A stretch of DNA of 64,000 nt from Polytrichum commune (lineage: Eukaryota; Streptophyta; Polytrichopsida; Polytrichales; Polytrichaceae). The notes beneath the pieces were generated by a model. It was not told the origin of the DNA. It did not search any database and saw nothing but the letters and a program-made list of their open reading frames with translations. Positions 19,716 to 64,000 of this stretch are shown one piece after another; position 1 is the stretch's first letter; each line of letters opens with the position of its first letter. A program made the position numbers and the translations under genes. Location of the stretch: positions 43,891,169 to 43,955,168 of the forward strand of contig OX485806.1 of the NCBI GenBank assembly GCA_950295325.1, written 5' to 3'.

Positions 19716-20259
19716 GTTTGATATAATTTTTGTGTCGGCCTAGTTATGTATGGGCTAAGGTACGACCCTCTCGGATCCGAGAGGGTCGAAGAGTAGGGCT
19801 ATGAATGGCCAGATTTTGATTGAAATGATTTGAGGCATGTATGTTTAAGTGTATGTTTGATATGTTTTATGTTTCGGCCTTGTTGTGTATGGGTTGGGGT
19901 AGGACCCTCTCGGATTCGAGAGGGTCATCGGGTAGTGCTATGAATGGCCAAATTTGGATTGAAATGATATGAGGCATGTATGTTGAAGTTTATGTTTCAT
20001 ATGTTTTTTGTTTCGGCCTAGTTATGGATGGGCTAGGGTAGGACCCTCTCGGATCCGAGAGGGTCAAGGAGTAGGGCTTTGAAGGGCCAGATTTTGATTG
20101 AAATGTTTAAAGCATGTATGTTTAATTGTATGTTTCATATGTTTTATGTGTCGGTCTAGATATGTATGGGCTAGGGAAGGACCGTCTCGGATCCGAGAGG
20201 GTCAAGGAGTAGGCCTATGAATGGCCAGATTTTGATTGCAATGTTCAAGGCATGTATGA
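19716..20259. repeat. 139-bp satellite array, second segment (intron 1)
   Basis: About four units continue the array after the LTR insertion, with palindromes near 19765, 19903, 20041 and 20180. The array stops in mid-unit about 50 bp before exon 2. Confidence 0.9.
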
Positions 20260-23870: not shown

Positions 23871-23910
23871 GTTGGTTTTTTTTCTCCTTGTTTCTCATGA
23901 CTTTGTTCTG

Positions 23911-25930: not shown

Positions 25931-26195
25931 TTGTGTGGCTAGTTTGGACTTCAATGTTGAATGCTTGTTTGTGTATATAGGTTGGACTAGTGTGTATGTG
26001 TATGTGGCTGGATTGGACACTCTTCCTTCAAGTATTTAGGACCAGATTTTGGACTTCATTGTTGAATGTTTGTTTGTGTATATAGGTTGGACTTGTGTGT
26101 ATGTGTATGAGGCTTGATTGGACCCTCTTCCTTCAAGTACTTAGGACCAAATTTTGGACTTCATTGTTGAATGTTTGTTTGTGTATATAGGTTGG
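25931..26195. repeat. 105-bp satellite, first units
   Basis: About two and a half units of the 105-bp family ('ggaccagattttggacttcattg', 'tgtgtatataggttggactagtg', 'tgtatgtggctggattggacc') precede a retroelement fragment. Confidence 0.85.
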
Positions 26196-33500: not shown

Positions 33501-35770
33501 GTGTATACAGTTTGGACTAGTGTGTATGTGTATGTGGCTGGATTGGACCCTTTTCTTTCAAGTACTTAGGACCAGATTTTGGATTTCAATGTTCAATGCT
33601 TGTTTGTGTTTATAGGTTGGACTAGTGTGTTTGTGTATGTGGCTAGATTGGACCCTCTTGCTTTAAGTATTTAGGACCAGATGTTGGAGTTCATTGTTGA
33701 ATGGTTGTTTGTGTATATAGGTAGGACTTGTGTGTCTGTGTATGTGGCTGGATTGGACCCTCTTCATTCAAGTATTTAGGACCAGATTTTGGACTTCAAT
33801 GTTGAACTTTTGTTTGTGTATATAGGTTGGACTAGTGTGTATTTGTATGTGCACTTGAATGGACCCTCTCGGTTCCGAGAGGGTCGTCCGTCAAGTATTT
33901 AAGACCAGATTTTGGACTTGATTGGTGTGTGATAGTTTGTTTGTGTATATAGGTTGGACTAGTGTGTATGTTTATGTGGTTGGATTGGACACTCTTCCTT
34001 CAAGTATTTAGGATGAGATTTTGGACTTCATTGTTGAATGCTTGTTTGTGTATATATGTAGGATTATTGTGTATGTGTATGTGGCTAAATTGGACACTCT
34101 TCCTTGAAGTATTTAGGACGAGATTTTAAACTTCATTGTTGAATGTTGTTTGTGTTTATAGGTTGGACTAGTGTGTATTTGTATGTGGACTTGAATGGAC
34201 CCTCTCGGTTCCGAGAGGGTCTTACTTCAAGTATTTAGGACCAGATTTTGGACTTGATTGGTGTGTGATAATTTGTTTGTGGACTTCATTGTTTAATGCT
34301 TGTTTATGTATATAGGTTGGACTAGTGTGTATGTGTATGTGGTTGGATTGGAGCCTCTTCATTCAAGTACTTAGGACCAGATTTTAGACTTCAATGTTGA
34401 ATGCTTGTTTGTGTATAGAGGTTGGACTAGTGTGTATTTGTATGTGCACTTGAATGGACCCTCTCGGTTCCGAGAGGGTCGTCCGTCAAGTATTTAAGAC
34501 CAGATTTTGGACTTGATTGGTGTGTGATAGTTTGTTTGTGTATATAGGTTGGACTAGTGTGTATGTTTATGTGGTTGGATTGGACACTCTTCCTTCAAGT
34601 ATTTAGGATGAGATTTTGGACTTCATTGTTGAATGCTTGTTTGTATATATATGTAGGATTATTGTGTATGTGTATGTGGCTAAATTGGACACTCTTCCTT
34701 GAAGTATTTAGGACGAGATTTTAAACTTCATTGTTGAATGTTGTTTGTGTTTATAGGTTGGACTAGTGTGTATTTGTATGTGGACTTGAATGGACCCTCT
34801 CGGTTCCGAGAGGGTCTTACTTCAAGTATTTAGGACCAGATTTTGGACTTGATTGGTGTGTGATAGTTTGTTTGTGGACTTCATTGTTGAATGCTTGTTT
34901 ATGTATATAGGTTGGACTTGTGTGTATGTGTATGTGGCTGGATTGGACCGTCTTCATTCAAGTACTTAGGACCAGATTTTGGACTTCATTGTTCAATTCT
35001 TGTTTGTGTATGTAGGTTGGACTAGTGTGTATTTGTATGTGGACTTGAATGGACCCTCGCGGTTCCGAGAGGGTCTTCCTTCAAGTATTTAAGACCGGAT
35101 TTTGGACATGATTGGTGTGTGATAGTTTGTTTGTGGACTTCATTGTTGACTGCTTGTTTATGTATATAGGTTGGACTAGTGTGTATGTGTATGTGGTTGG
35201 ATTGGACCCTCTTCCTTCTAGTAGTTAGGACTAGATTTTGGACTTGATTGTTGAATGTTTGTTTGTGTATATAGGTTGGACTAGTGTGTATGTGTATGTG
35301 GCTGGATTGGACCCTTTTCATTCAAGTACTTTGGACCAAATTTTGGACTTGATTGTTGAGTGCTTGTTCGTGTATATAGGTTGGACTTGTGTGTATGTGT
35401 ATGTGGCTGGATTGGACCGTCTTCATTCAAGTACCTAGGACCAGATTTTGGACTTCATTGTTGAATGCTTGTTTGTGTATATAGGTTGGACTTGTGTGTA
35501 TGTGTATGTGGCTAGATTGGACCCTCTTCATTCAAGTACTTAGGACCAGATTTTGGACTTGATTGTTGAATGCTTGTTTGTGTATATAGGTTGGACTAGT
35601 GTGTATGTGTATGTGGTTGGATTGGACACTCTTCGTTCAAGTATTTAGGATCATATTTTGGAGTTCATTGTTGAATGCTTGTTTGTGTTTATAGGTAGGG
35701 CTAGTGTGTATTTGCATGTGGAGTGTATTGGACCCTCTCGGGTCCGGGAGGGTTTTCCTTGAATTATTTA
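30576..35770. repeat. 105-bp satellite, third segment
   Basis: About 48 units of ~105 bp run almost to exon 11. Palindrome-bearing variants occur near 30812, 33865, 34200, 34457, 34793, 35053 and 35731. The block at about 33830-34300 is repeated almost exactly at about 34425-34900, a segmental duplication of several units. ORFs of 60-100 codons here are repeat translations and not genes. Confidence 0.92.
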
Positions 35771-35861
35771 GGGCCTGATTTTGGATTTGAATGTTGAATG
35801 CTATGGGTTGGATTCATATGATATGTGTCTCTTTTTGTAACCGATTGGGATTGGCCATCAG

Positions 35862-36639: not shown

Positions 36640-36930
36640 TTTGGGTTTTTATGTCCACGGAAATGGGGTGCATTTCCAACAATTTGAATTCAAACTATCT
36701 CTAATTCCATGAAAATAGGCACTGCTTCTCCTAAAATTACCCATCAAAATCCAAAATTTTGGCTCTCCAATCTCCGCTCTCCGCTCTACGCTCACACTAC
36801 TAAGTTTCCCATGAGTCAAGCTATCTCTCACTCCACCACGGGAGAATCCAAGAGTGTAAGGAAAACAAGAAGAACTCAACTAACGAGTGTGGTAAACGTT
36901 ATTCCAAGGAACTATAGGCTGGGTGCAATG
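36640..36930. repeat. Dispersed repeat fragment
   Basis: 'ctcactccaccacgggagaa' and 'tccaagagtgtaaggaa' recur at 57400-57440. 'ctccgctctacgctcac' is the complement of a stretch near 7230. It lies between the gene's 3' end and the gypsy element. Confidence 0.55.
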
Positions 36931-37149
36931 TGAGCCCTATTCTTAATCGCCTCTGATGTTTGGCCATCAGATTCCAAAGAATTAATTCCACCGCCTCATG
37001 TTGATTGCGTCTCTAAGCCATACCTCCTCATTTTCCACTTGGGCAGGCACAAGATGATGAAAACCACACAGGAATATTGAGCACGATTGGTGGAAGCACC
37101 AAGTACCGATGATCCTCAACAGCAAAGACAATTCCACTGTCCAGATGGT

Positions 37150-37285
37150 AGAGAAGTCAAGGGTGGCCTCAAGCATGCATGTATCAACCACGTTGACACT
37201 AATCACATAAAAACATATTAGTCGATCATCTCTTCTCTCCACACACAAAATATGGAAGACCCTCTGGCACGACGGCCAGTTCAAG
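37150..37285 (-). pseudogene. Decayed PHD-finger-like module after integrase
   Basis: Directly after the integrase C-terminus (LELAVVPEGLPY) the same frame reads FVCGEKR-stop-STNMFLCD-stop-CQRG-stop-YMHA, then SGIVFAVEDH. The spacing C..C, LCD.C..G.H, then a G-W-like position followed by a Cys-like position is that of a PHD finger, which binds histone H3 tails. Several expected Cys/Trp positions are changed and four or five stops occur, nearly all reachable by C-to-T or G-to-A changes. A chromodomain fills the equivalent place in chromoviruses. Confidence 0.5.
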
Positions 37286-37639
37286 ATGAACTACACCTTC
37301 TATGGATAGATGACATGGGGTACAATTTTTGGAATGCTCGCGACACTCCCTACCATCTTTGTCTTCCAGCAACAACAAACCACTTGGCAACACCTCTTTC
37401 ACCCAAAGAATAGTGTGCTTTGCTTTGACATCCAATGTTGTAGGCGCTTCACGTTGGAGATAAACATAATCCCCCTGTTGGAATCTCCGCAACTGAGTTC
37501 GGTAAGCACCACTGCGAATGCGTGCATAACGCAATGTGTCACGGTGTTGAGCAATGGACAAATTCTCCATGGCCATAGGCATGGCCCTCTAAAAGAATTG
37601 AGCTCGCTCCTGCAAACACTTTGCCCAAATGTTTGGGTC

Positions 37640-38428
37640 ATCTAAGTCCACAATAGGAGCTAGCTTTTCCCGAATAGAACTCGGGAGTATAGGCTCACGT
37701 CCATATAACAATTGATACGGGCTGTAGGATGCCAAAGAGGCCTACCTACTAAATCGATAGCCCATAGCAATCCAAGGCAACATAAGGTGTCAATCCCGAT
37801 GGTTCCCCCGAAGTAATCCATACATCCTCAAGCCACACTTGGTTGTCTGAACAACCCGTTCAACCAAGCCATCCGCCTCCGGATGATCCCGAAAGGTGGT
37901 GCGGTGATCTATGAGCGCCTTAGTGCACGACTCCTCAAAAGCACCGAGGAATTCCCTCCCTTGGTCCATCAATACCTCAGCCGATGCTCCAAAACATGCC
38001 AACATACGATCCAAAAAGGCGGCCGCGGCCAACTTTGCAGAGTTTTGGGGTAAAGCAACAAGTTCAATCCATTTGCTAAAATGCTCCACCATCACCAACA
38101 TGTACTTTGCTCCACGTGGTGTGACAACCAATGGTCCCGCAAAATCCAACGACCAACGGTAGCCCAATTCCATAATAGGTAAGGGCTGTAACTGAGGTGA
38201 CAAGGTGTTAAAGCTAGACCTGACCTGGTCACAAACTTCACACCTCTCGACATATGCAACCACTTGTTGATACATGCCAGTCCACCAATATTGGCCACGC
38301 AACATCAAATGTATCATGCGTATGCTAAAATATCCAAGTTCCTCGTGCACTTGTTGCACCAAGGAGGCCCTCAGATCCGGCCTAGGGACAATATGCCTTG
38401 TCCCATCCGGCCACAATCGAAATAACAA
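37640..38428 (-). pseudogene. Integrase of the gypsy element
   Basis: The HHCC zinc motif is seen as VHEELGYF, MIHLMLRGQYWW and ERCEVCDQV. The core acidic triad is present: WSLDFAGPL, VLMDQGREFLGAF and DHPEADGLVERVVQT. After a stop near 37790 the frame continues through LLYGREPILPSSIREKL to the C-terminal domain at 37582-37226 (RRFQQGDYVYLQ, ILWVKEVLPSGLLLLEDKDG). Confidence 0.85.
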
Positions 38429-38589
38429 ATTGTTCTCCCAACGGAACCTTGCTATTTGATGTCCAATCCTATCCCTTTCATTGCTGAGGTGAACAAAAGA
38501 AAAGTCCCTTGTTGAAGCTTATGCAATACGGAAAGATCGTCCCATATATCCGCAATGGCTTGGGGTTGATTAGTCTCATCATCCGAGCC

Positions 38590-39250
38590 CTACATCGGAA
38601 CCTCAATAGCCGCACCAAAAAATAAAGTGAGGTAAGCAGTTGCGTGCCAACCTGGAACCGCCTCTCGATCACAGTCTCCATGCCACCTAGCTCCGGTTAA
38701 GTCTTTATCCAAAGGACTTGGATTGCGTGAGAGTCCATCTGCATCCAGGTTGGTAATCCCAGCACGGTGCACCACTTCAAAGTCATACACCTGGAGCAAC
38801 AAAGCCCATATGGCAAACTTGCCATCCGATTCCATGAGCCACCGTAACGGCTGATGGTCAATCACCAAAGTAAAACGCTGATCATAAAGATATGGCCGAA
38901 AATGGGCAATAGCCCACACCGCCGCCAATGCTTCTCCCTCATAGGACAAATAATTGGCCTCCACCGTGTTGTTGCTTCGCGACGCGTAAGCAACAACATA
39001 CTACCGGCCAAAGTCATCCTTCTAAGTTAGAACTGCTCCCAAACCCAATGAGCTCCAGTCCGTATGCAACTGGAAAGATTTGGAGACATCTGGACGTCGA
39101 AGCACCAGAGCCGTATCTAGTTTCTGCTTCAATGTCTCAAATGCTTGCTGCTGCTCACGACCCCAAGTCCAAGGTTGGTCCTTGCTCGTGAGAATGGTGA
39201 GAGGCTTGGCGATCAAGCTTAAATTCTTGACGAATCGACGATAGTAATTT
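38590..39250 (-). pseudogene. RNase H of the gypsy element
   Basis: FQLHTDWSSLGLGAVLT, NYLSYEGEALAAVWAIAHFR and FTLVIDHQPLRWLME give the D, E and D of the RNase H active site. A stop follows GAVLT and another precedes YVVAYASRS. The connection domain ends with VVHRAGITNLDADGLSRN. Confidence 0.85.
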
Positions 39251-40171
39251 GCCAAGCCCAAGAAAACACAAAGTCTCGGCACATTGACTGATGCCGGGAT
39301 CTTCTGCAAGACGTCCACTTTAGCTTGTTGCATTCCAAAACCTTCTAGAGTAATCATATGACCTAGATGTGCTAGTCGGTCATGGAAAAACTTGTACTTG
39401 CCATGATGCAAGCGCAATCTCCACCGCCGCAACCGCTCAAAAACAACTTGAAGATGCCTTACATGCTCATGTGGTATTTTACTGAAAATGATCACGTCAT
39501 CAATGTAACATCAAGGAAAGGGCAAGCTAGAGAGGACTTGGTCCATCACTCTTTGAAACTCAGCAACCGCATTCTTGAGGCCAAATGGAAAAAACTTCCA
39601 ATGGTACAGTTGATCCTTCCAATCATCAAACTCCCCAGAATGCGGTTTTCACTCGATATCCCGCAAGTAATGGGAGTTGGTGATAGCCAGATCTCAAGTC
39701 CAGGGTGCTAAAAACCCGAGAAAATCCGATTGCATTGAACAATTCCTCCGGGATTGGTATGGGATACCAATCTGACTTGGTCTTTCAATTAACTAGATGG
39801 TAATCCCCACACATCCGCTTCTCCGTCCAATTGCCAAAGATATCATTTTTCGATGGCATAACCGTAGCACAAGTAGACTCCATGTTGGAAAGTTCGATTA
39901 GCCTTGCTGCCAAGAGTTCTCGGCAACGAGCCTGAACGCCAATCCGCTCGGAAACACTAAGCCTATAAGGTCTCCAAAAAATGAGATGCTCATCCTCCAA
40001 CTGAATGTGGATGGGTTTTCCTTTATAACCTTCAAGATCTTGAAGTCTAAAAGCAAAACACCTACGGTACGAGCGAATAAATGCTCGTATTTTCCATGCC
40101 TCAGTACTAATGAGATGAGGGCCTAATTCCAATGGCCAATTATCAAACTTTGTAGTCTTCCTCTTCACCAA
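39250..40171 (-). pseudogene. Reverse transcriptase of the methyltransferase-bearing gypsy element
   Basis: The frame shows WRPYRLSVSERIGVQARCRE, RVFSTLDLRSGYHQLPLL, LPFP-stop-CYIDDVIIFS (the YIDD box is at 39506-39495) and LGLANYYRRFVKNLSLIAKP. The catalytic box is intact, but a TGA precedes it and two further stops lie between the LDLRSGYHQ block and it. A frameshift lies between 40480 and 40171, separating RT from the methyltransferase. Confidence 0.85.
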
Positions 40172-40479
40172 AAGAAAATGGCCTGATGCTGGTACAGGCT
40201 CTAATTGCTATTGAGAGGAGAGGGCATCAACCATGCCCCCAACCTCAGAGCTAACAATAGAGTCTGTCCCTTCTTCATCACCACCAATATCTGATGAAGA
40301 AGCCAACACCGGAGGTGAAGAAGCCAAAGCCGTATAAACCCGTTGAGCTCGGAGCTCCTCTTGCATCTGTTGCTCAAATCAAAAGATTCATTCGGCTTTT
40401 CCAACCATGACCTCAATTCCCTCCTCCATGGATGTGGACCACTGTGCCCCTTGATTAGAATCCTCTGCCCAGAGACTAA

Positions 40480-42660
40480 AACTGGTCATCATGATGCCGT
40501 TGCAATGCAAGGCATAAACCAACAGTCCACACCATGGTATGGAAATCCATGGTTTGGCCCAACACGAAGCCTCGTTGGCCCTCAGAATGGCCAAAAGTTG
40601 TAGTAGTGCCACTACGGAATCCCATGGCACGCTCTTGTTCGTCAGCCAATGGTTCGATGTAGGTTTTGGTATAAGCATCCCACACCATACCTGGCCCCCG
40701 ATCGCGGAATGCGAATGACTGTGGAAACGTCATAAAGGTGGGAAATGCTCTCCGTGGTGCCCTCATTTTGTTGACCAATGCCAACGGGGGTAAATCATCT
40801 CGAACAACCGGCAAAGAGGTCTGGTTTGGATCCAAGATGTCATCCACATTTTGATCAAAAGGTGGAGGCAATGCAAAAAATGTTGCAGCTCAATTAGATG
40901 ATGGTGCGAGGTTGGTCCAAATCCACCGAGGACGGTGGACATAAGAACCAGGGCTCGCCGCATCCATAAAAATGGGATATCCAAGGTGTTGATGAACATA
41001 ATGGCGGCCTTCCAACACCTTGTCCCAAGAGTCTCCTAATAAAGGTACATTCTCGAAGATATACCCTAGAGGGGAAGGTTGGTGGGAATACCACCTATGG
41101 ATGAAGCAGATGAGGTCCCAAAATAGACTAGACTTGGGATCCTCTAGACCTTGGCCTACTCCAACACGTGAATGGCCCTGTATGAGCCCAAAATAAGTGC
41201 TCATATTGGTTTTAGGTTTAGAATTTATTTAGAATTGCATTTGGAGTGTTATTGAAACAATTAAAAGTATAAAAAGAGTGAGGCTTGGTGTGGTTTATAT
41301 TTTAGGCTTTAAGCCTACTTTGTGTGGTTAATTAGAAGCTTAGTGATATTAGGGAGTGTGGTGGTCAAGTGAGTAGTGTTTGATGAGGCAAGATGAAGGT
41401 CCTTGGATTTAAATATTTGAATTAGAACATGCTCTTGTTGGTTTAGAGGGTGAGGATTTAGTGGATAGGATAAGGTCTTACTAAGTAGGAGAATGTTAAA
41501 GGGGTTTGTGGTCTTGGGTGCCCTCTCCTCTCTCTCTCTCTCCCCCTCCTCTCTAGGATTTAGAGCTCTTAGAAGTAGAAGGATAGTGGAATTAAGTGGT
41601 GAATTAGTAGGGGATTTAGTGGAATTATTAGAATTAAGTAAGGGGATTAGTTACGGAACTTATGGTGTTAAGAGGTTGAACTTATGGTTAGGGAACTACT
41701 GGAATTTCACTAGGAAGCTGCTGGATTACAGTCGGGAGCTGCTGGGCTGCAGTGGGAGCTACTGATTTTACACTAGGAACTGCTGGGTTGCAGTCGGGAG
41801 CTACTGATTTTACACTTAGTGAACTGCTGGGTTGCAGTTGGGAGCTGCTGGGCTGCAGTGGGAGCTACTGAATTTACACCTTGGGAGCTACGGAAATTAC
41901 GCTTAGGGAGTCGCTGGATTTACATTTAGGGAGCTGCCGGAGTTATGGTTCGGAGGGGTACATGAGGATTAAGTTCACATTATATGGTGGTTGGTTAATT
42001 AGTAAAGGGATAGGGAGACTAAACTAGAGACTTAACTCCTTAAGAAATTAAGGAGGGAGGAGGTCCCTAACATGCAAAAAGGTGACATAAGGGAACAAGC
42101 TTTTGGTAAGGATTGGAGTGTTGAGTTTGAATCAGTGTAGGAAGAGAGGACTACTAGAGAAGAGTATTTTTTAATACTTGTACTCGTATTATGGAATAAA
42201 GTGATGTGTAAAAGTTGATGGGGAGTGAAATAGATTTTTATGAATTTGGTAAGAGGTAGGATGTAAACATGAATGTGATACCCATACCCTCACCCGGACT
42301 AGGACGCTTAAGGATGGGCGGTTTGGCCTCACACCTTGGCATGGCCATCCTGCAATCACCATATCCACCGGACCCAGGTGTCGTAAGTCGGCCTCACTGA
42401 CGAGTATGACATGACGAGGGAAGCGTGAAAAACACCAACGAATGGCAGTCGAGTGTAACTGATGTGGGTACAACATCATCAAATGGTGAAGATGGTGATG
42501 AGCCACACGGGTAGACACTTGAGAGTTGTCCACATAGACATATCGTTTGATTGTGAGGCCAACCTCCAATACGGCCGCCAATCTTATGCCGATGCCTCCA
42601 AACAATTCCACCAAAATAATCCCTGCGTCCGGCGGCCGCCACAAAATGGGGTGTGCCATT
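40480..42660 (-). pseudogene. C5 cytosine DNA methyltransferase domain in a gypsy polyprotein (split by LTR)
   Basis: Left of the insertion the minus strand encodes ILVELFGGIGIRLAAVLEVG (SAM-binding motif I), RYVYVDNSQVS (motif II), EADLRHLGPVDMVIAG (motif III) and WPCQG (motif IV with the catalytic Cys). Right of the insertion come HSRVGVGQGLEDPKSSLFWD, GYIFENVPLLGD (motif VI ENV), YVHRPRWIWTNLAP (motif VIII), then ADEQERAMGF and EGQRGFVLGQTMDFHTMVW (motifs IX-X). The reading frame is restored exactly when the LTR and one copy of its target duplication are removed. All catalytic residues that I can see are kept. A stop lies after APSSN (~40890) and two lie between protease and methyltransferase. 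The enzyme would transfer methyl from SAM to cytosine C5. Confidence 0.88.
41181..42333 (+). mobile_element. LTR-like insertion, family 1 copy 3 (in the methyltransferase)
   Basis: It begins TATGAGCCCAAAATAAG with GTGCTCATA close inside and ends CACCCGGACTAGGACGC then TTTGGCCTCACA. Flanks ccctg (41176-41180) and ccttg (42334-42338) are a 5-bp duplication with one change. Deleting it joins Q-G to H-S-R of the methyltransferase in frame. Near 41700-41900 it has internal repeats of 'gggagctgctgggctgcagt'. It has no coding domain and fits a solo LTR. Confidence 0.8.
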
Positions 42661-42767
42661 GCCGATGTGCTATCCGGTATGACCGGTGTCGTAGAGGCGA
42701 GAGAGAGGATAATGTCCTCACATCACCTGAATAACTCGGCGGAATCGCGCCAAGGAGGATGAGGATC

Positions 42768-43364
42768 TTAGGAATGGCGCACCAATATAGTATGAGGTGC
42801 CATCTGTCGTTGATCCTCAGCACTCCCCATAAATGCCAACGATTCCTCCAATAATGCGGATCCATAGGGCAATGTATCAACAACAACACCACATCCAAAA
42901 ACCATGGATAAGGGTGCTATGGTAACAGCCACCGCGAACGCCACAAGAATAAGTTCTCTGCGACCATCCCCAGCTGACCAACCTAGTCGGATCCACGCCT
43001 CCTCAATCCAGTTGTCCAAACCAAAACCAAGAGGGTAAAGTGCTTGCTTACCAACTAAAATGTCATAGTTGGTCGCATCCGTCACCACACACCTAAGAAG
43101 AAGAGATGCGGGTGGATCTCTAGGCTTCACTTGGAAGCTAAGCTGTAATGACTCCCGAGTATAACCAGTGGCCCACTCCACGTGGCCAATCAATGTAACG
43201 ATGGTAAATGGGCAAGGAGCCAAGTCGTCAGCCATCAACCGCAATTCTTGTGCAAGGTTTTTGCCGATCATAACAGGTTGTACTCCCGAATCTATCATCA
43301 CACTGGGGTGCAACTCAAATAGGGTTTCCCCCAGCCCGACTAACCACCAAAATGCCATAATCAT
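42768..43364 (-). pseudogene. Retropepsin-like protease of the gypsy element
   Basis: HPSVMIDSGVQPVMIGKNLA at ~43310-43250 is an aspartic protease active-site block (DSG in place of DTG/DSG variants). It is followed by the second hydrophobic block DATNYDILVGKQALYPLGF, typical of retropepsins in plant Ty3/gypsy elements. The frame goes on past a stop at 42770 into the methyltransferase. Confidence 0.75.
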
Positions 43365-43641
43365 TCATCATATGTACAACGCCATGTCGAATGCCTCGAC
43401 GTTCGCGAGCAGATCGAGCAACTACATCTGAGAGATAGGATGCGCTCGCGGGGGCTGGTGAATCATAAGATGAGGTGGACTCTTGGCCATCCAAGGTGTG
43501 TGCGTCAAAAGACGCAATGGCCTCTACTGCAAGCCTCACTCGTCGTCTAGCCGCTTCTTCCGGATCCTCAATGGTAGGAAGGTCAGTGGTGGCTTGAACC
43601 ACAGTCAAAGAGGACAGGGGTGTTTTTCCTTCCAAAATCAA

Positions 43642-46250
43642 TCATGCTAGGTGAAAAACCTTAGCTGGTTGGATGCTGGATGACGACCATCTCATCATTG
43701 TACACAAAGGTGTATGCAACACTTTAGATGCTAAAGTGTGCACTACATCAGTCGCCGGATTCGAAGCCTCCAAGCTCGAATGCCGACCACTGACAGATTG
43801 GACAGCATCCGCCAATTCAAAAGACAATGGCAGACGGGCCTGACCAATCTGATCCGCGGGACCATTGTCCCGAGCTCGTAAGTTGTTTACAGACTGTCCT
43901 GTGGGCGAAGGCGTGGCTCGTGACACGGAATGAGCACGTGTCACCGCTACGGAACTCACCACCTCCCCCGAGGTTCCGAACATATAATAATATGGAGTGG
44001 AAGAACTAGCCTTAGCTTCGATGAAAGACGGTGACTCCAAGAATTGGCCGAATGACGCCAAACTTTTGAACCTCTCTTCTAAGGCTCTAATCTTTGCATC
44101 CAACGCCTTTTCTCAATCGAAAGAATGACGTTTCTCTAGATGGAGAGCAAAGCAGTTGTCTACCACGTGATTGTTCCGCCCACAATGGGAACACTTCAAT
44201 TGCTTGGGTAAATATGTACCCACCCTCGTTGAATCCTTAGCATGAACAACTGGTTTCCGTTTTGGATGACCTACGGTCTGGACTTGCCTTTGCTTCAAAA
44301 GACAATCCTTCTTAGCATGGCCCGCCTGCCCACAAGACCAATAATATAAGATTTTGTCCACCTCTGCCTCCGCCAATCCCGCAGCCGCAACCGGAACCTT
44401 CCGGGATTTGCTAGAATTCACTAGCATGGACACCAAGTTAGTGACATCGTGCTGACACAAGGCACGATCACTCTGCTCAACAATGTCGAAAACCTCTACA
44501 AGTGTCGTCCGGCCACCATAATTCATGATGATCTTGGGAAGTGCTAAGTCAATTGGCCGTTTGTCAATCTTTGACAAAAAGACCTTTACCAACTGGTTCT
44601 CTACAAAAACACCGCTAGATTCTCTGGCAAACCTCACCAAGCTCGTGTACATGGTACGAGGTATGTCCTTTTTCTCTAGTCAAAAGTCTTGGATCAACTG
44701 CATTTGATCCCTGCGGAGACCTCCATATTCCTCCTCCAAATGGAGTTAGAATTCATGAAGATGATCAAAATTTGGCGGAACCCCTAAAAAAACTAAGGCC
44801 ACTTAGATAGCATGGGCATAACCCAAAGCGGAAAGCTTGGACTGGACGTACTCACGGATGCGGAAGCGGAAACCTTCTCCTTAGGTTCACCAGGGAATGT
44901 CCCTTCCACATCCACAACAAAGACGCCCTCCGCTTGCTCCGTCGTCACCACAGGAGCCACCAATGAACTAGAAGTTGCGCCTTCCTTCAATGCGGATGTC
45001 ACGCACCTCTCCATGAGGAGTGCCCAAAACACCATGGGCACAAGGGGGACCCAAGAGTGACACCCGGGACTTGTGGCGCCGTTGGTGAGAGGGCTCAAGA
45101 GATTCTAGTGTGGGTGAGGGCCCCGGGCGTTGGGAATGCCTCTCACCCACGGAGACTAGGAGGCACGAGGGTAGGGCCATAAGGTATGCGTAGTTTATGG
45201 TGTGGTGATTCCATAAAGCTCAAGAACACCTCAATCGGAGGTGTGAGCTAGGAGTTATGGCAATTTGAGTGGGGCGCTGTCCCGGGACAGCGCCCTGGTA
45301 CAGCAGTACCTGGGAGTGATTCCCGGGACTGCCAAGGTTCAAACAGGCATAACTTCGTCAATACTTACCTGAATGGGGCAAGTAAGGCGTTCATCGGCAT
45401 CTACGTGAAGCGTAGATGAAGATAAAGTGGTTGTTTGTTAGCATCAAACATCATACAAGGAAGTTATGATGGTCTGAAGCTGATGGGCGCTTCTAGGCCC
45501 AACGGCTAAGGGAATATATCTACTTGGCCCCAACTCTTGGTAGAGAGACAAAAGGTCTCTTGACAGTGGGGTAAGGGCCCCGCGTAGAGTCTTAGAGGCT
45601 TATATGGGTGAGGTGGTGTGGCCTCACCACTCGAGGCCGAACGGCACAGCCTCCATGGGCATTGGCCCAATGTGAGGCCATAGTTGCCTAGTACGCTTCG
45701 GGTTGTTGTAGTGTTGCTCCGGCAACGCGATGATCAACATAGGATTGGACTTCCACATTGAAGAAATGGGTTACTGATTAAGGGGGTGAATCCCGAAAGT
45801 AAAGTAAGAGGGTTGGTTCCCTTCTTATGAACTAGAAGGTCCGGGGTAGGAGGAGCTAACCATTAGCATGGCGGAATGCGAAGGGTTAGCGCTCGTAACC
45901 TTTGCTAGAAATGAAAAGAGGAAAGATTGCTAAGGGGGCTAGCAAGGGTTGCGACAGCGGAAACCAACTCCACCCGAGTAGTCTAGTACCGTTTCATTTG
46001 GCGCAACTCCATCCAATGAGCATCCCTCCATTGCTCATATGTTTGGAGCGCTTTGTGCTCCAAATATTGAGATAAAAGCTCAAACGTATATTAATCATTA
46101 AAATTGGTATTGAGTTGACGTTTCTCCCTTATTTACGTCCTTAACCAAATTTTCCAGTTTTGCAGATAAATGGTCCCTACTCGACCGAAAAATTGGTCTC
46201 AAACTCCACCTCGCGTTTATTCCTCCATATCGTCAAAGGTTCCTACCCAA
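43642..46250 (-). pseudogene. gag region of the methyltransferase-bearing gypsy element
   Basis: After removal of the solo LTR at 44997-45956 the frame reads through QTYEQWRDAHWMELRQMKRY into ALKEGATSSSLVAPVV and on to the main gag piece (44652-44113). Two zinc knuckles are visible: CGQAGHAKKDC at ~44328-44302, whose first Cys seems replaced, and a complete CSHCGRNNHVVDNC at ~44193-44152. After a stop a Ser-rich linker (44103-43642) leads to the protease. The part right of 46000 is heavily mutated (several stops). Confidence 0.7.
44997..45956 (+). mobile_element. Solo LTR, family 2 copy A (in gypsy gag)
   Basis: The 960-bp sequence starts TGTCACGCACCTCTCC and ends GGGTTGCGACA (TG...CA ends). 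It is flanked by perfect 5-bp duplications gcgga (44992-44996 and 45957-45961). Inside is the palindrome GGGCGCTGTCCCGGGACAGC with its complement end. A second copy in opposite orientation is at 51917-52891. Confidence 0.9.
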
Positions 46251-46285
46251 AGGTCGTGAGACCGAGTGGCAATCCCCCACGCCTG

Positions 46286-46700
46286 TAACATACATTGCTA
46301 ATCTTTCATAAAAAAAATCACTTATTAAGTAAAGCTCACCTCCTAACCTAGAGATGCACCGCAAAATATAATGTGTGTTCTCCTTTCCCCGAGCCATATT
46401 TATACATAATATCTATGAGATACTTTTAGAAGACTCAAGTCTTTCTATACATAAGTCTTTCTATACATAGACTAAAGTCTCCTTATCTTTATGTTTAAAT
46501 TATTTTTTCTTTTTCTTTCTTAAATCACTTTTTATTTTTATTTTCATAGATAAGAATCATCCAACTTCTCGTCCTTCTCGTCCTTCGATTTCCCATTCAT
46601 CCACGCTTCTTAGTCTTGAATGTTCATCCCTGCAATTTAATTCTCATCCTCAATAGTGCATTTCCCAATTAGCCTATTATACTCTTTCCCTCTCAAATTA
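46286..46700 (-). other. Non-coding junction, possible LTR of the second gypsy element
   Basis: The stretch begins tgtaacatacattgc on the plus strand, is AT-rich, and contains a 'tatttatacataat' TATA-like word near 46400. It separates the 5' gag of the first gypsy element from the chromodomain end of the second, so it is the likely place for a 3' LTR. No matching partner was found. Confidence 0.3.
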
Positions 46701-49700
46701 AGTCATTATCCGCAATGACAAAATTTGGGTAAGTTTCCTTGAACTCATTTTCTAACTCCCATGATGCCTCATCTTTAGGATAATCTTTTCACTTAATAAG
46801 AAATCTCTTGAATGACCTATTCCTGAGGTGTTGTAAATCATCCTGTAAAATTCTTTCAGGTTCAACCAACATCTCCCCTTCATGAACTACTTGAGGTAAA
46901 TCTGGAAGCACATGATTGGAGTCAGAGACGTATTTTCTTAACAAACTTACATGAAACACATTATGAATTTTCCAGTCTTTGGGTAAGTCTAACGCATACG
47001 CCACTTGACCAACTCTCTCAAGAATTTGAAACGGACCACAAAATCTAGGGGATAATTTTCTAGACCTTCCAAGTTTCAATCTAGAGCGTTTAGGCGTTAC
47101 TTCCAAAAAAACCTTCTGACCAACTTCAAACTCTCTTACACTTCTTTTTTGATCAGCATAGAATTTAAATCTCTCTTGTGCACCTTGCATACATTGCTTA
47201 GCACATTCTAATATACTATGCATTTCTTGAATCATTTGATTCAAACTTTCAATTTTAGAGTTAGGAGTTGCTAAGGAGATTGGAGTTCTACATTCTTGAC
47301 CATATAAAGCATAAAATGGACTCATCCCTATGCTACTATACTCTTGTTGATTATAAGCAAATTGTATCAAATACAACCACTTATCCCAATACTATTGTTT
47401 TTTACCAACATACATTCGAAGCATGTCTTCAAGATTTATGTTGGTTCTTTCAGTCTGTCCATCCAATTCCAGGATGATATGCCAAACTCATACCAATCTT
47501 GGTGCCACATAATTTGAATAAAGATTTCCAAAATTCACTCGAGAAATTTCTATATCTGTTACAAAATTATCTCTCGCGGCAACCCATAATTCACAAATAT
47601 CTCTTTAAAAAACAACTCATCTACTCCCGAAGTTCTCACAGTTGTAGTTGTAGGTATAAATCGAGCTACCTTAGTTAGTCTATCAACGACCACAAAAATG
47701 CTATCAAAGCCCTTTTGAGTCCTAGGAAGATCCACAATGAAATCCATAGAATTATATACTCCCACTTTTTATTAGGCACTGACAATGGTTGCAACAACCC
47801 TGGATGTTTTACTTGCTCCACTTTGTTCGTCTAACATAACAAACACCTCTCGATATGATCTTTCACATCTCTTTTCAATTCTGGCTAAAATAATATTTTT
47901 TACTGCCGCATATGTTTTCTGAAACCATGGATGACCAGAGATAGGAATATTGTCACAATGATAGATAATATTTTTCCTATAATCTCCCACCTCAGGAACA
48001 CAAATTCTACATTTATAATATAAAATATCCGCATCCAAAGCATAGGCAAAAAACTTATCAATTTCTTCTTGAGTTCTAGAATCTTTCGACAAACTCTCAA
48101 AATGAATAGAGAAGAACACATCATCCTTATAACATCCTTTGATTTTATCAAGTATAGTGTCTTTCACTAAAGACATTGCATTTGAAAAGGATCTACGTGA
48201 CAAAGAATCTGCCACAACATTTTTTTTGCCTTTCACGTATTGAATCTCAAAATTAAACTCTTGCATCAAGTCCATCCAACGACTTTGTCTACTATTTAGA
48301 TTAGCTTGACTAGTCAAATATCGTAATGACTGATGATCTGTCTCTATCTTAAATTCACTACCTAGTATGTAGTGATGCCAGACCTTTAAAGTGTGCATTA
48401 TCACTAATAGCTCTTTCTCTTAAATGGGATAAACAACTCTGCATTGTTAAGTTTTTTTGGATTCATCAGCGATCACCCTGCCTTCTTGCATAAGGACAAC
48501 ACCTATAGCCATAGCATTGACATTTGTGCATAAGACTAGCCCGCCTCTCAAGGGATCCATGATCCTCAAGACCGGGGTTTCTGTCAGAACTTTCTTTAAA
48601 GCCACAAAGCTTTCATGACAATCATGAGTCCAAGTGATTCTTTCAAATTTGCCTTTCAATAAATCCGTCATGGGGGCTGCAATCTTGGCAAAATTTCTTA
48701 TATATTTCCACATGTAAGTAGCCAACCCCAAAAAGCGTCTGACCTCAGTCTTATCCTTTGGCACATGCCACCTAATCACTGTCTCGATTTTTTTAGGATC
48801 AATTGAGACACATTCGCCAGACAACACGTGTCCAAGGTATTTAATCTGGGTGCGAAAAAATTGACACTTTCTTTTCTTGGCATACTATTTATGTCTTCTC
48901 AAAACAACAAACACCTTCTCAAGGTGTTCTTTATGTTCTTCCTCGTTTTTGAAAAACAAGGGAGAAGACTCCCATATATTCTCTGAATATGGTATTTATG
49001 AGATTCATAAATGTGGCAGGTGCATTGGTAAGTCCTAAAGGCATTACCAAATATTCATAATGACCAAAGCGACTACGAGAAGCTATTTTTTTAATGTCAC
49101 TCTATTTGATTCTTATTTGATTATATCCAGTTTTTAAATCAATTTTTGAAAACATCTTAGCCCCGCTCAATTGATCCACCAATTCATCAAATATGGACAA
49201 TGGATATTTTTTTTAATGGTAGACTTGTTGAGACCTCTATAATCCACACATAGCCTCAAACTACCATTTTTATTCTTTTGAACTCCACGGAGATTTGTTA
49301 GGTCTAATGTAACCCTTCTTTAACAAATCTCTTAATTGAGTTTCCAACTCAACATTCTCTTTAAAACAATGTGTATAAGGTGCCTTAGCTATCGATGCCA
49401 CACCAAGTACCAATTCAATAGTATGATCCACCTCTCTTTGAGGTGGCATTCTTGGCAACTCATCAGGAAAAATATCCTGATAATTTACAAGAAAATCCTT
49501 AACATTTATTGGTTCTTTGCAACTTGATTCCGACTCATCTAAAACCTTACGAATATCAATTGTAAAGACTTCTTGTTTCTTTCTCAGACACCTTTTCATT
49601 TGTGTAGCAAAAAGTAAAGGTATTTTAGGTAGAACTCTCGTACCTTTTATTGTGAAGGGTTTATTGTCGGAAAGTTTGCCATGAACCTTCCCATATTTGC

Positions 49701-50870
49701 AAGCAATCCATGCATCCACGTCATTGAGCTAGGATATTACCAAAATGACGTCGTATTGACTTCCTGTCCAAACTTCAAAATTTGCAATGGTTTGTGTTCC
49801 TTGCAATATAACAGGGACGTCCAACAATCGACAGTCAATCAAGTTTAACTCACAATTAGGTAAGAAAACCTTACAAGGTTCGGTCTTACTGACGGGAAAT
49901 CCCAACTTTGATGCAAATTTAAACGACATCAAATTATGGGTTGATCATAAATCAATCAACATAGAATTTGATTGAATACCAATTGACCCTTGAACCTGGA
50001 GCACCGTAGGTTTTCTCGCTACCCACTCCTCACATACTGCAGCTGACACACGAACTATTTCTTTACCTTTGGACACCATTGGCGGTTCCACCTTCATTGC
50101 CAATGCTACAGACTGTTTTGGACGTTTCTCTATTGGTCGCAAACATTCCTTAGCCAAACGTCCTGGCTCATGACAATTATAGTACAATCATTTTTTTTGG
50201 TGTTTTGCTTGATCTTTGTAGGTGGGTTTATTGCTTGGTTGAACGTTGCTCTGTCATTCTACATGTGAAAACTTTGGGACTTCTTCCACTTTCCTATTTT
50301 TTTTTCTCTACTATGATCCTTACGAGAGACATCAAAATAGAAATTTTTCTCTTTCACTAACTCAATATTTTTAGTCTCAAACGTTAAGGCCATGCTATAT
50401 GCTTTTCCAAACGTATAAGGCTTCAAAGCTTTGACATCATATTTGATTGAATTTTGAAGTCCTGTAACAAAAAATATTTGTTTGTCTTTTTCAGACAAAT
50501 CCGGAATATATTCGACTAATTTGTCGAAGCTATCTTTGTACTCACGAACTGACAATGTCCCTTGTCCAAGGTTTTTCAAACGGTCTTTCATAGTCTGGAT
50601 ATAATCACGTGGTAAAAAAATATTCTAAGAAAAATTTCTTGAACTTAGACCATGTTTCCATTGGATCTTTGTTGGTTTCCTCCCTATCAGTTTTAACATG
50701 GGTCCACCAGAGATGGGCTCGTTCTCTCAACAGAAAAGAAACTGCTCTCATTTTCTCCTTGTCTGAGAGCTTCCCCTCAAACAAATTTTCTATTGTTTCT
50801 AAAAACGATAGAACTGCCTCAGGTTTAGTGTTGGCTCCACCTGAAAATGTAGGTGGTTGCATGCTCTACC
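46700..50870 (-). pseudogene. Ty3/gypsy chromovirus, degenerate
   Basis: The minus-strand order is gag (MQPPTFSGGANTKPEAVLSF at 50862, zinc knuckle CHEPGRLAKEC near 50175 with its His replaced by Arg), protease (MLIDL-stop-STHNLM near 49950), RT (49719 to ~48450), RNase H (FKIETDHQSLRYL, 48404-), integrase (NSMDFIVDLPRTQKGFDSIF at 47765, then [20 protein letters not shown]) and a chromodomain ([20 protein letters not shown], then FLIK-stop-KDYPKDEASWE at ~46850-46740). The chromodomain stop is TGA where Trp is expected. The RT lost its YxDD box by a small deletion near 48950-48985. More than ten stops make it inactive. Chromodomains steer integration to heterochromatin. Confidence 0.88.
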
Positions 50871-51911
50871 GGATGTCGTGTAAGAGTGTGTTTTACCTCT
50901 CTCAAACGTGTGGGATGGATGAGTAGCAAGGAAAAATAAAAAATAAATAAAAAATGCAATATACACTTGCAATCACTGCCAACCTTATGGTATGCTGGTC
51001 ATTATTCCAGCCTTACCATGACGGAAAACAAGCACCGCCCACTTGGTACACACACAAGGGTCCCGTCGGTCATCACTTCGACCTCACTCCTACAATACCC
51101 TATCACAAACTAGTACAACACAAAATGGGGCAAGTTGGCAATTGCCAACAACACAGCCCACAACGGGGGAAGGTACCACGACAAAATACAGAAAAACAAT
51201 GCAATTATAGCACTAGGTTTTCTTCCCCTAACAACACTTAAGCAAAAATGAAAATTGACCGCGTCCAACCGGCACTCGCATGCGGTTGGTGGTCAAGCGT
51301 GAGACACCCCTGTTGCAGTGAAAAAAAAATTGCTTATAAATACATTTCTCATCTCCCGCTACAACATAAAAATCCTCTCCTCCTCTCCTCCCTGGAATCT
51401 GTGTTGCTAAACATAATTCGCCCATAACAATTATCTTGTTAAGTCAAATGGCGATTCCATGTATCAAATTGCTCCACCCCTCGGCAATCCTTCAACAACC
51501 CCAAATGAATCCCAACGCCTCTCCTAATTTGTTGCAGGGGATGTGTGGGAGCACACGAACACCAAAAATTTCCGGATAGGCGTTTTTCAATGCCTAACCC
51601 GGTCTGTCCAGATGATCCAAGTATCTTCCAGGGATTCTGTGAAGTGTAGGATGTCAAGGACCCTCTTTTCCTGCTTGAAAATCGACCACCGGCCGATTCG
51701 GCTTTCCGGATCCGGATGGTCCTTTGGAAGTCCTTGTTCCGGGACTTGCCTTCCGGATTGAACCTCTATAATTACATCTTACTTCTACGTGCCACTTTCC
51801 TCAATACCTACCTATCTATGTCCTACCTCCAATGATGATTTCGTTCATCCGGTGAAGACATCCCTGTATGGTCAGAATCCGGATTTCTCTCACAACCAGT
51901 CCGGATCGGCC
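50871..51911. other. Unassigned sequence between retroelements
   Basis: The part near the chromovirus gag (50880-51240) may be its leader. From about 51540 the sequence becomes CCGGA-rich and resembles the interior of the gag element at 53.5-56 kb, which may extend here. No coding domain was found. Confidence 0.35.
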
Positions 51912-51916
51912 TAATC

Positions 51917-52891
51917 TGTCGCAACCCTTGCTAGCCCCCCTTGACCATCTTGCCAATTTTCATTTCTAGCAAAGGTTACGGGCGCTAGCCCTTCGCATTC
52001 CGCCATGCTAATGGTTAGCTCCTCCTACCCCGGACCTTATAGTTCGTAAGAGGGAACCAACCCTCCTACTTTGCCTTTGGGACTCACCCCTTTAATCGGT
52101 AACCAATTCTTAGATGTGGACTTCCATCCATGGAAGTCCAATCTTATGTTGATCATCCCATTGCCGGAGCAACACTACAACAACTCGAAGCATACTAGGC
52201 AACTATGGCCTCACATTGGGCCAATGTCCATGGAGGCCGTGCCGTTCGGCCTCGGGTGGGTGAGGCCACACCACCTCACCCATATAAGCCTCTAGGACTC
52301 TACGCGGGACCCCTACCCCACCGTCAAGAGACTTCTTGTCTCTCTACCAAGAGTTGGGGCCAAGTAGACATTTTCCCTTGGCTGTTGGGCCAAGAAACCC
52401 CCAGCAGCTTCAGATCATCATAACTTCATTGTACGATGTCTGATAATAACAAGTGACCACTCCATCTTCATGTACGCTTCACGTAGATGCCGATGGACTC
52501 ATCACTTTCCCCATTTGGGCAAGTCTTGAGGAAGTTATGCATGTTTGAACCTTGGCAGTCCCGGGAATCACACCCAGGCACTGCTGTACCAGGGCGCTGT
52601 CCCGGGACAGCGCCCCACTCAAATGGCCATAACTCCTAGCTCACACCTCCGATTGAGGTGTTCTTGAGCGTTCTAGAATCACCACGCCATAAGCTACGCA
52701 TAGCTTATGGCCTTACCCTCATGCCTCCTAGTCTCCATGGGTGGGAGGCGTTCCCAATGTCCGGGGCCCTCACCCACACTAGGATCACTTGGGCCCTTTC
52801 ACCAACGGCGCCACAAGTCCCGGGTGTCACTCCAGGGTCCCCCTTGTGCGCATGGTGTTTTTGGGCACTCCTCATGGAGAGGTGCATGACA
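51917..52891 (-). mobile_element. Solo LTR, family 2 copy B
   Basis: This 975-bp sequence is the reverse complement of copy A at 44997-45956 with modest divergence. Its minus strand starts TGTCATGCACCTCTCC. Perfect 5-bp duplications taatc flank it (51912-51916 and 52892-52896). Independent duplications show that the two copies are separate insertions and not the ends of one element. Confidence 0.9.
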
Positions 52892-52896
52892 TAATC

Positions 52897-56886: not shown

Positions 56887-57180
56887 CAGGCAGGGCGAGC
56901 CGGGCAGGCTAGCTGCCGTCGTTGGCCGCTGCACCGGAGCAGACAAGGGCGGCCAGGAGCTCCGGCTCCCGAAGTTGGCTCTTGGCCACTCCTCCTCTTT
57001 CTTTTTCTTTCTTTTTGATTTTTTTAATGAATTGTTTTTAAATGCAAATAAGAATAGTTCTTCACAGCTCAATGGCGCGAATTTCAAGCTTGCATGCAAT
57101 CAATTGACACGAAATTCCGTGGAAAATTTAACACTTCATCACCACAATTCACCTTGATGTATCATATACAAAGAAGCATT
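56887..57180. other. GC-rich then AT-rich spacer
   Basis: A (ggca)n-like stretch and a GC-rich patch follow the rRNA fragment. The ORFs at 57099-56842 and 56879-57157 show no domain. Confidence 0.3.
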
Positions 57181-57640
57181 CTTCTTCTTGTTGCTCCGCA
57201 AATCCGTGGTGTTTTCGCTCCGGAACTTCATACCTTTGTCACTCTTTATCTTCACACCCCTTTTGCGCGTTACATCTTAAGAGTGAAGAAAAGAACATAA
57301 AAAATGAAGCGCATTCTTACCAAATGAGAAGGAAGAGAGTCAAACCCTTGCAAGAGCTCTAATCTCTCTTCAAATGCACACAATGAATTAAGCTATTTCT
57401 CACTCCACCACGGGAGAATCCAAGAGTGTAAGGAAGGGAAAAAGAACTTAAGATTTATTGCAAAAACATGCAATCTTCACCTCACACAAGGACTCTCCAC
57501 ACACACACTCAAAAGACCTGATTTGGCAAGAATGCCAAGCCAAAGAAGAGGCTCCTCACTTAGGAACCTTCCTCTTCATATCTAAGATTCATCCATCCAA
57601 ATCTAAATGGATGAAGCCCATTGGATAAGGTGCGGCCGCC
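57181..57640. repeat. Dispersed repeat fragment
   Basis: This shares 'agagctctaatctctcttcaa' with 7170-7195 and 'tccaagagtgtaaggaa' with 36850. It is the longest copy of this dispersed family in the window, but its ends are undefined and it has no coding domain. Confidence 0.55.
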
Positions 57641-59576
57641 GACGCCGTATACCATGACATAAGTTACAATGATAATTTAACAAATTAATCATAAGTGTTA
57701 CCTCATGACACTTGGCATTGAAGTGCGCTTACTAATATTTTGGCATGAGTATGTTCAATAATATTATGAGGTGCATGCCTATGTTACACAATGATCTACA
57801 AGTTGGCTAAAGTGTAAACACATGACACTTGCCATTAGTACATTCAAAATTATCTTTCCCTTGCATACTAAAACACAACACTATCATCTAAAGTATTCCA
57901 ATTTCCTACTCTAAATGTCATAATGTCATGATGTCAATATTTTTTCACTTAAAGAAATTACTTATGTTGATGAATGGAATCATATTGACAATTAGTAAAT
58001 GTGATACTAACTATCATAAATAATGTGCCTCTTTGTTAAGTTTTGGTTATTTATTATCTTAGATGAGATAATGGGTTACATGCACACTGATGTTTGTAAG
58101 AATATAGATCCATCACTTGATTTCCTAGATCAAAATGTTTCCGGTTGTGCAAAATCTATAAATGCTACACATGTAGCCACTATTGGATCGCAAGGACTGA
58201 ACCGAATAGCTACAAATAGGAGACTGCTACTTTGAATTTTTTTCACCCTGATGATTTTATGTGGCTGTGTGGGCCTTTGGATGATTTTGTGTGATCAAGA
58301 TATCTTGTGAAGCTAAATTTTATTACCCCATTCAAACTTACATAGAATCCACTTTGGAATGGCAAGGATAAAGTCTATAATATTCATGGCTTGTATATAA
58401 TGGTACTACCATGTTGATATTTGCATACATTGCATAGTCAGATGTTGTTTATGGAGGTATCATGTGAAGTGTTAGCAATTGTTTTTATTTGTCATACGTT
58501 GAACCAGCATTAGCAAGATAGATCTATACATGTATATACTCATACACATGCATATATGGATGATAATAAGCCATTTTTCAAAGTGGCATGTAAATGAATA
58601 TCTTTAGTTCAAGAGAAGTGAAACTCTAGTGGACATTGTGATATGTTCAACTACAAGTTGAGAGCACATCCACCTTTATAGGTCTTCGCATGAAGTTGCA
58701 CTAACTCGTTGGGAGGTGAGGGTGCAACTACAATGATCACACCTAGTACTGTGAGTTATGTGTACAATTACCATGCTTTTAATGCCTATAAAGGGGGATT
58801 TGTGGCACTCAAGTAAAGTCATCCAATAACGAAAATCGGATGAGTCCATCAAGAAGCTCGGATGGAGCTTACTTTAGTGAAACACCTCCGAGTTGGCATG
58901 TAAGACCTATTTTCTCCCTCATAGTTATTTTATAAATATAAATTAGTTGGCAAGGGGCAATGATGTGGCCTTGGATGCTCTAAGCCTATTTCTAACCTCC
59001 CTTGAGTTGTTTTCAAGGCCATGATGTGGCTTTGAATTCCACATGGTTTTTTTGATAAATATCGCAAGATATCAACATGTGCAATATATAATTATGACGT
59101 ATTGTCAGACTCTTTTTTTTGTTCATAATTCATTTATTTTGCACAGGTGTGATTGCTCAAACATTTGTAATATGTCAAAATAATATATATCACCTTATGA
59201 TAAATTGGTGAACTAAAAAAAATTCAATATTATTACTATTACTATTACTAGTACTATTTATAATATTTATTTTAAAATAAATAATATACACCATGTGATT
59301 TTAAAGATAATACAATATGTGATGAGGATAAATTATTACAATAATTCAGATAGGCTATAGTTAGAAACTTATGATTTTTTGAGTATACCCCATCCATAAC
59401 ATTGTCCCACAAGTCTAATTCCGAAGAACATATCATTTATTTATACCTTATATTATATTACCTAAAAAAAAATATTTATATTTATATACATTTTTGCTAT
59501 ATGTTTTATATTCTATCTTCATTGTTTCATTTTGGTCATCTTATGAACACTTGCACTAATCTATCATTAGAATGAC
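57641..59576. other. AT-rich intergenic DNA
   Basis: No ORF with a recognisable domain, no tandem repeat and no RNA gene was found. The 70-codon ORF at 58023-58235 has no features. Confidence 0.5.
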
Positions 59577-63914: not shown

Positions 63915-64000
63915 CTGCACAACATCAACAGAAGCTCAATACCAGACATTGAATGCAACTATATAAAATGGGCGGCCAAGAATTACCAATCTCTGTCATC

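Follow-up and report, generated by a model that had tools for sequence, protein, structure and literature searches.

A Ty3/gypsy retrotransposon family of Polytrichum commune with a DNMT3-type methyltransferase and a candidate leaky stop codon

The minus strand of a 64,000-nucleotide stretch of Polytrichum commune DNA (contig OX485806.1, positions 43,891,169 to 43,955,168; hereafter, the window) bears a single Ty3/gypsy retrotransposon copy encoding gag, protease (PR), a DNMT3-type C5 methyltransferase (MT), reverse transcriptase (RT), RNase H, integrase, and a PHD finger. The copy itself is dead, broken by stop codons, frame changes, and nested insertions. It likely belongs to a Ty3/gypsy family with many copies and recent activity whose coding region includes a DNMT3-type MT.

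DNA methylation is a weapon of the host against transposons. Given this use of methylation for silencing, a transposon whose own de novo MT is maintained under selection is a paradox. We tentatively propose that the recently amplifying family may make a de novo MT at Gag dosage, apply the silencing mark to its own DNA, and pick matching chromatin via the PHD finger, and that the MT may have been kept since the streptophyte algae because methylation on arrival helps.

Results

Related copies in the P. commune genome

An earlier note on this DNA, made from the sequence alone, had placed gag, protease, MT, RT, RNase H, and integrase on one strand. This order was borne out by tblastn against sister proteins, by Pfam, and by motifs recognized by eye, and protease and MT of the window copy do occupy one common frame, as had been claimed. 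Along its whole length, the element aligned by tblastn with sister proteins whose reading frames are unbroken between gag and MT or between RT and the PHD finger; several matches had E = 0.

The P. commune assembly (407.8 Mb, 64 contigs) was searched with PF00145. The search gave 353 candidates, 123 of which were scored, all above the cut-off; the genome contains at least 123 MT matches, and the counts are lower bounds. The window's own broken copy is absent from the 123. Sixty matches were fetched (rows 1-40 and 98-117 of the list, the six weakest being left out), and their loci lie on seven contigs of 42-78 Mb. A protease was found upstream of the MT in 57 of the fetched copies and RT downstream in 59, with both in 56. 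This genome-wide search for sister copies of the same order, which the note had called for, refuted a capture of the MT at one locus.

At 88% identity, the fetched copies formed two subfamilies of 29 and 25 members and six strays; the window copy shares about 88% identity with the nearest copies of subfamily 2. The MT was unbroken in 35 of the 60 copies, and 15 had a twin at ≥99% identity. Two genomic copies were dated by their pairs of long terminal repeats (LTRs), which were identical at 334 of 334 positions in one copy and 99.8% identical over 438 columns (one gap) in the other. The twins and the near-identical LTR pairs indicate that the family was amplified recently.

A 9285-base sister element (L018; CADCWO010000201.1) has both open reading frames (ORFs) open, with ends overlapping by 127 bases. 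Its presence in a cyanobacterial metagenome-assembled genome is contamination; among 17 loci from prokaryote bins, tblastn detected the MT in L018 only.

A leaky-stop context between ORF1 and ORF2

ORF1 (gag-PR-MT) of the window copy ends in CAA UAG CAA UUA, with RT in frame right after it. This is the sole UAG-CAR-YYA on both strands of the window. L018 reads UAG CAA UCA at the same place. CAR-YYA is the readthrough consensus of plant viruses (PMC2194720), and the tobacco mosaic virus (TMV) context gave 32% readthrough in one plant reporter system (PMC2754532).

The boundary could be scored in 58 of the 60 genomic copies. The first in-frame stop after the MT was UAG-CAR-YYA in 41 of them, with RT following in frame in 40 and after a frameshift in one. 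When only the 42 copies that first stop at the ORF1/ORF2 boundary are considered, 41 keep the motif and one differs in its last base; the remaining 16 scored copies have a different stop or a frame change. No additional stop precedes the RT match in 37 of the 40 in-frame copies. The variants found among copies (UCA, UUA, or CCA; CAA or CAG) all fall inside the consensus despite amino acid changes. By sequence, a TMV-type leaky-stop context followed by in-frame coding is present in 40 genomic copies, L018, and the window. Such a putative leaky-stop layout at the ORF1/ORF2 boundary of an MT element appears to be new.

Class and conservation of the methyltransferase

The window MT is classed as DNMT3-type from its sequence: among C5 MTs of known structure, its catalytic domain comes closest to DNMT3, and the motif order is unrearranged. 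A model from 32 aligned rows predicted a DNMT3-like fold; an earlier model from 6 sequences (pLDDT 46) was poor and was not used. In the 32-row alignment, the E of motif VI, R-W-N of motif VIII, and E-R-E-G of motif IX are present in all rows, while P-C-Q of motif IV and N-V of motif VI are each conserved at ≥90%. The median ratio of nonsynonymous to synonymous substitution rates (dN/dS) of the MT was 0.11 among the genomic copies, indicating purifying selection. These copies were used because the comparison of the window with L018 was saturated at synonymous sites in gag and both MT pieces; its aberrant RNase H piece (19 codons) was dropped.

Relatives in other plants

Searches covered 5.8 billion proteins. 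The MT C half retrieved 9 proteins aligning from gag through protease to MT (P0009 without the gag N terminus), and a second search with the MT of the most distant of them gave 35 rows, the query counted. The MT relatives include P0021 (Mp_4g09160), P0026, and P0027 of Marchantia polymorpha, P0020 of Calypogeia fissa, and P0035 of Sphagnum fallax, one gene model with PR-MT-RT-integrase matches in order. These records show that bryophytes carry MT-bearing elements and agree with the earlier proposal that the lineage occurs in land plants. The integrase search gave 28 proteins. P0037 was the nearest (79%), M. polymorpha P0060, Riccia sorocarpa, and Calypogeia were among the matches, and the weakest were unrelated elements of hare and fungus. 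P0011 (ORF1) and P0038 (ORF2) probably sit together, since both list one 8955-base NCBI contig.

A second layout (type B), with the MT between RNase H and integrase, was found in P0029, P0031, and P0033; two of the three have a PHD finger. No relatives turned up in IMG/VR with either the gag-PR-MT or the ORF2 alignment; the type B alignment yielded 17 short matches to C5 MTs within viral contigs.

P0025 and P0036, which have long branches, were left out of a second MT tree; P0036, whose actual order is MT-RT, had been wrongly labelled type B in two trees, the first one of the MT and that of the integrase. The second MT tree split the PR-MT-RT type (31 rows) from the type B layout (6 rows) with support 100/99. 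In this tree, moss and liverwort MTs fell into one clade with two further rows (100/98), and the window grouped with P0001-P0008, P0017, and L018 (100/99). The integrase tree placed the window with P0037 and P0038 (100/99).

A PHD finger at the integrase C terminus

The ORF2 relatives P0037 and P0038 end in a PHD finger (Pfam E 1e-11 and 5e-10, respectively), and no chromodomain was found in either by Pfam at E ≤0.01. The finger is unbroken in two dated genomic copies. A PHD finger is a histone-tail reader by family. When a profile with type B PHD rows was used, the best solved matches included the fingers of CHD4, KDM5A, BAZ2, and ATXR5, which are mostly readers of unmodified H3K4.

Discussion

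Proposed mechanism and alternatives

ORF1 would be closed by a leaky UAG at which most ribosomes stop, and a minority would read through, adding RT-RNase H-integrase-PHD. With gag-PR-MT ending at such a UAG and RT in frame, it would follow that the MT is made together with Gag, and RT-integrase-PHD by readthrough. We consider it very likely that readthrough yields RT-integrase, so that the MT would be made in Gag-like rather than Pol-like amounts and be packaged with the particle. The layout is a new clue, as the MT looks dosed like a structural protein. Once packaged, the MT would methylate cytosines, CG first, in new cDNA or at the fresh insertion, so that the copy would arrive in the genome bearing the same mark as resident DNA. 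Insertion would be directed to particular chromatin by the PHD finger of the integrase, much as it is by the chromodomains of chromoviruses. Taken together, self-methylation of cDNA or of the fresh insertion and PHD-steered insertion may well occur, although we stop short of calling the combination probable.

Instead of the element's own cDNA, the MT may target the host genome or chromatin in trans, for instance by creating a methylated landing zone or by disturbing silencing. This is conceivable, if somewhat doubtful. A DNMT3-type enzyme and an integrase PHD finger would suit such a role, as would the C-to-T decay of old subfamily-2 copies, which is higher at CG (0.141) and CHG (0.128) than at CHH (0.086). 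However, a CG and CHG excess is expected from ordinary host silencing, and synthesis of the MT as part of a Gag fusion points to packaging in the particle. In old subfamily-1 copies, the rates hardly differ (CG, 0.069; CHG, 0.078; CHH, 0.057). The decay also weighs against self-methylation: a footprint of the element's own enzyme, confined to CG, was not seen, and ordinary host silencing would yield the decay that was. A further point on that side is that the MT of the Klebsormidium nitens element gave no methylation in yeast, a result called inconclusive by de Mendoza et al. (PMC5890265).

Whether the lineage persisted or was regained in land plants had been left open in the earlier note. Sequence comparisons suggest that persistence from streptophyte algae fits better than re-gain. 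K. nitens KFL_009030040 (P0030) has the same PR-MT-RT-RNase H-integrase order, and its integrase is 49% identical to that of the window over 368 residues. In addition, MT and integrase distances are correlated (12 elements; Mantel r 0.64, with 0 of 10000 permutations as high), also when only longer pieces are used (9 elements; r 0.75, 1 of 10000). In view of these data, an independent re-capture of the MT in land plants, or its horizontal arrival, is unlikely. Both would be compatible with the long, weakly placed branch of the Klebsormidium MT (81/37) in trees that were built without host DNMT3s. Moreover, rows labelled type B need three changes in the integrase tree, and none of 200 bootstraps united them in one clade. 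This disfavours one simple history for the type B layout, and the domain may have moved on several occasions.

Production of ORF2 by reinitiation, internal initiation, or splicing in place of UAG readthrough seems improbable to us, although several observations favor it and count against readthrough. Among 23 subfamily-1 boundary copies, the first ORF2 Met is at codon 14 in 21, at codon 6 in one, and at codon 117 in one, and three ORF2 relatives (P0037, P0038, and P0042) have an N-terminal MP not far from the expected stop; reinitiation is therefore possible in subfamily 1. Some relatives (P0025 and P0030) have MT and RT in a single ORF. In contrast, the 17 window-type copies among the 40 have their first in-frame ORF2 Met at codon 115-145, at the edge of the RT domain or inside it, and L018 has none before the RT edge. 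The retention of UAG-CAR-YYA in all but one of the boundary-stopping copies also argues for readthrough.

Even less probable is a passenger MT whose catalysis is no longer important, for example one that only binds nucleic acid. Motif IV reads PCQ in the window and its relatives, as opposed to PCN in the DNMT3A alignment, which is a point for a passenger and against an active enzyme, but the low dN/dS and the retained catalytic motifs argue otherwise. Finally, a chance host-gene fragment or a nested insertion at a single locus, which the broken and interrupted window copy might suggest by itself, is refuted by the layout common to the genomic copies and by sister proteins that are continuous through PR-MT.

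Comparison with known elements

MT-bearing retroelements had been said to be known from charophyte algae and dinoflagellates, and PMC5890265 indeed reports cases from an alga and dinoflagellates. KnitGypsy-Dnmt3 of K. nitens resembles the P. commune element in being Ty3/gypsy with an unrearranged DNMT3-type MT between PR and RT, as judged from P0030, which we infer from species and layout to be this element. Its MT lies within one Pol ORF, whereas the gag-PR-MT ORF described here is closed by UAG. No PHD finger is listed for P0030, a partial record, and the relatives found here occur in land plants and at high copy number. SymbioDIRS-Dnmt3 and SymbioLINE-Dnmt of Symbiodinium are likewise retroelements with a built-in cytosine MT, and that of SymbioDIRS gave de novo CG methylation in yeast (PMC5890265). 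By their description in the same source, they are set apart as independent captures in the DIRS and LINE classes.

Animal DNMT3A and DNMT3B differ in having PCN and in standing outside a gag-protease polyprotein; a Pfam scan of four ORF1 proteins detected no PWWP or ADD domain. Chromoviruses are similar in being Ty3/gypsy elements with a chromatin-reader domain at the integrase C terminus, but here a PHD finger takes the place of the chromodomain and an MT is added. SIRE1, a soybean copia element, and TMV use a leaky UAG, a plant-type stop suppression, as an expression switch (PMC2194720), and a similar switch is predicted here. The SIRE1 stop precedes an envelope-like frame (PMC2194720), whereas ours lies between gag-PR-MT and RT-integrase.

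According to PMC6338049, methylase-bearing transposons are absent from land plants such as tracheophytes, and the word "methyltransferase" is absent from the main text of a plant LTR survey (PMC6317226). A literature search, its coverage mostly without subscription papers and bioRxiv, found no gypsy element with an MT described from land plants. If true, a self-methylating family with an MT at Gag dosage would overturn this printed view. As Marchantia is a genetic model, the benefit of transposon self-methylation becomes testable.

Organization of the window copy

Lengthened by nested insertions, the element begins with the 5' LTR at 57.66 kb and ends at 36.81 kb in what remains of its 3' LTR (Table 1). 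The extent given earlier, 36940..46285, holds for the coding part; leader and LTRs lie beyond it. The decayed PHD finger and the UAG CAA UUA boundary were also missing from that description. The LTRs were not recognized by self-comparison of the window alone, and a sister copy used as a bridge revealed them. As a control for the later leader match, the reversed window gave a best E of 0.12.

The nested chromovirus-type element is distant from the ORF2 relatives (mostly 25-35%), and its C terminus looks chromodomain-like by eye. Further insertions besides this element lie between the 5' LTR and the coding part. The insertion in gag is flanked on each side by an exact 5-bp target duplication, TCCGC, and that in the MT by a probable one, CAAGG/CAGGG (4/5), both seen by eye. 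The CCHC knuckles of gag, at 44113-44679, matched Pfam zf-CCHC at E 0.0019, under the Pfam cut-off. Two tblastn blocks cover protease with the MT N half (43301-42333) and RT/RNase H/integrase (40195-37178). Motifs VI (FENV), VIII (HRPRWIWTNL), and IX-X (EQERAMGF...VLGQ) were seen by eye in the MT C half, and the D, D, and E positions of the integrase match those of relatives, also by eye.

Table 1. Parts of the methyltransferase element and insertions within it (window coordinates)
Feature	Position	Strand	Evidence and remarks
5' LTR	57326..57659	-	87.5% identity over 335 columns, E 1.7e-116, to 334-bp LTR of genomic sister; separated from coding part by nested insertions
5' leader, first part, adjoining LTR	56908..57323	-	72% over 438 columns to sister leader, E 1e-53
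5' leader, later part, upstream of gag	51022..51294	-	Two pieces to L018 8295-8504: 70% (99 columns, E 2e-4) and 63% (132 columns, E 0.01)
Nested chromovirus-type Ty3/gypsy between leader and gag, foreign to MT element (approximate edges)	46300..50950	-	RNase H and Tf2-type SH3 Pfam matches
gag, N-terminal part (first ~37 residues not found)	45953..46288	-	tblastn to P0001/P0002, 50-57% identity
Insertion in gag, solo-LTR-like (TG...CA)	44996..45957		89% second copy, inverted, at 51916-52892
gag, remainder, two CCHC knuckles, three frames	43306..44817	-	tblastn, 40-49% to P0001-P0008
Aspartic protease, IDSG	42969..43301	-	tblastn; weak Pfam match, E 0.06; ≤88.6% DNA identity to genomic copies
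MT N half, motifs I (LFGGIG) and IV (GWPCQG)	42333..42659	-	tblastn; motifs by eye
Insertion of ~1.15 kb cutting MT directly after PCQG	41181..42333		Diverged relative with common ends at 29039-30573 (+)
MT C half, one in-frame stop	40485..41183	-	51-60% to nine sister proteins; first piece Pfam DNA_methylase E 0.013, under cut-off
ORF1 (gag-PR-MT) end, UAG CAA UUA, exact UAG-CAR-YYA context	40202..40210	-	RT frame carries on immediately; equal boundary in genomic copies
Reverse transcriptase	39022..40207	-	RVT_1 E 9e-10, RT_RNaseH_2 E 1e-12; 76-77% to P0037
RNase H	38590..39075	-	RT_RNaseH E 6e-19
Integrase, H2C2 and rve	37226..38518	-	Integrase_H2C2 E 1e-13, rve E 4e-12; 80% to P0037
Decayed PHD finger, integrase C terminus	37083..37178	-	53% over 32 residues to P0037 PHD region (tblastn)
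3' LTR remnant	36811..36879	-	90% over 69 bp to sister LTR; 88% to window's own 5' LTR

Surroundings of the element

Tandem arrays of a 105-bp unit lie at 27672-29036 (~11 copies) and 30576-35800 (34 copies plus shorter runs), and a 138-139-bp unit is repeated in arrays of its own at 14732-16918, 19716-20258, and 23910-24954. Two paralogous stretches, 26356-27161 and 54910-55706, are 70% identical over 817 columns. Long ORFs that overlap them (26141-27295 and 54521-55099) have no Pfam match and possibly encode gag-like proteins of an unclassified element. Two further long ORFs at 8822-11623 on the minus strand (399 and 418 amino acids), also without a Pfam match, possibly mark another mobile element. 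A kinesin-like gene probably occupies 61817-63924 on the minus strand. Its exon at 63739-63924 matched Kinesin (Pfam E 8e-8), with kinesin Ncd as the best PDB match, and the open frames down to 61817 look like its continuation; the gene presumably resembles plant kinesin-14.

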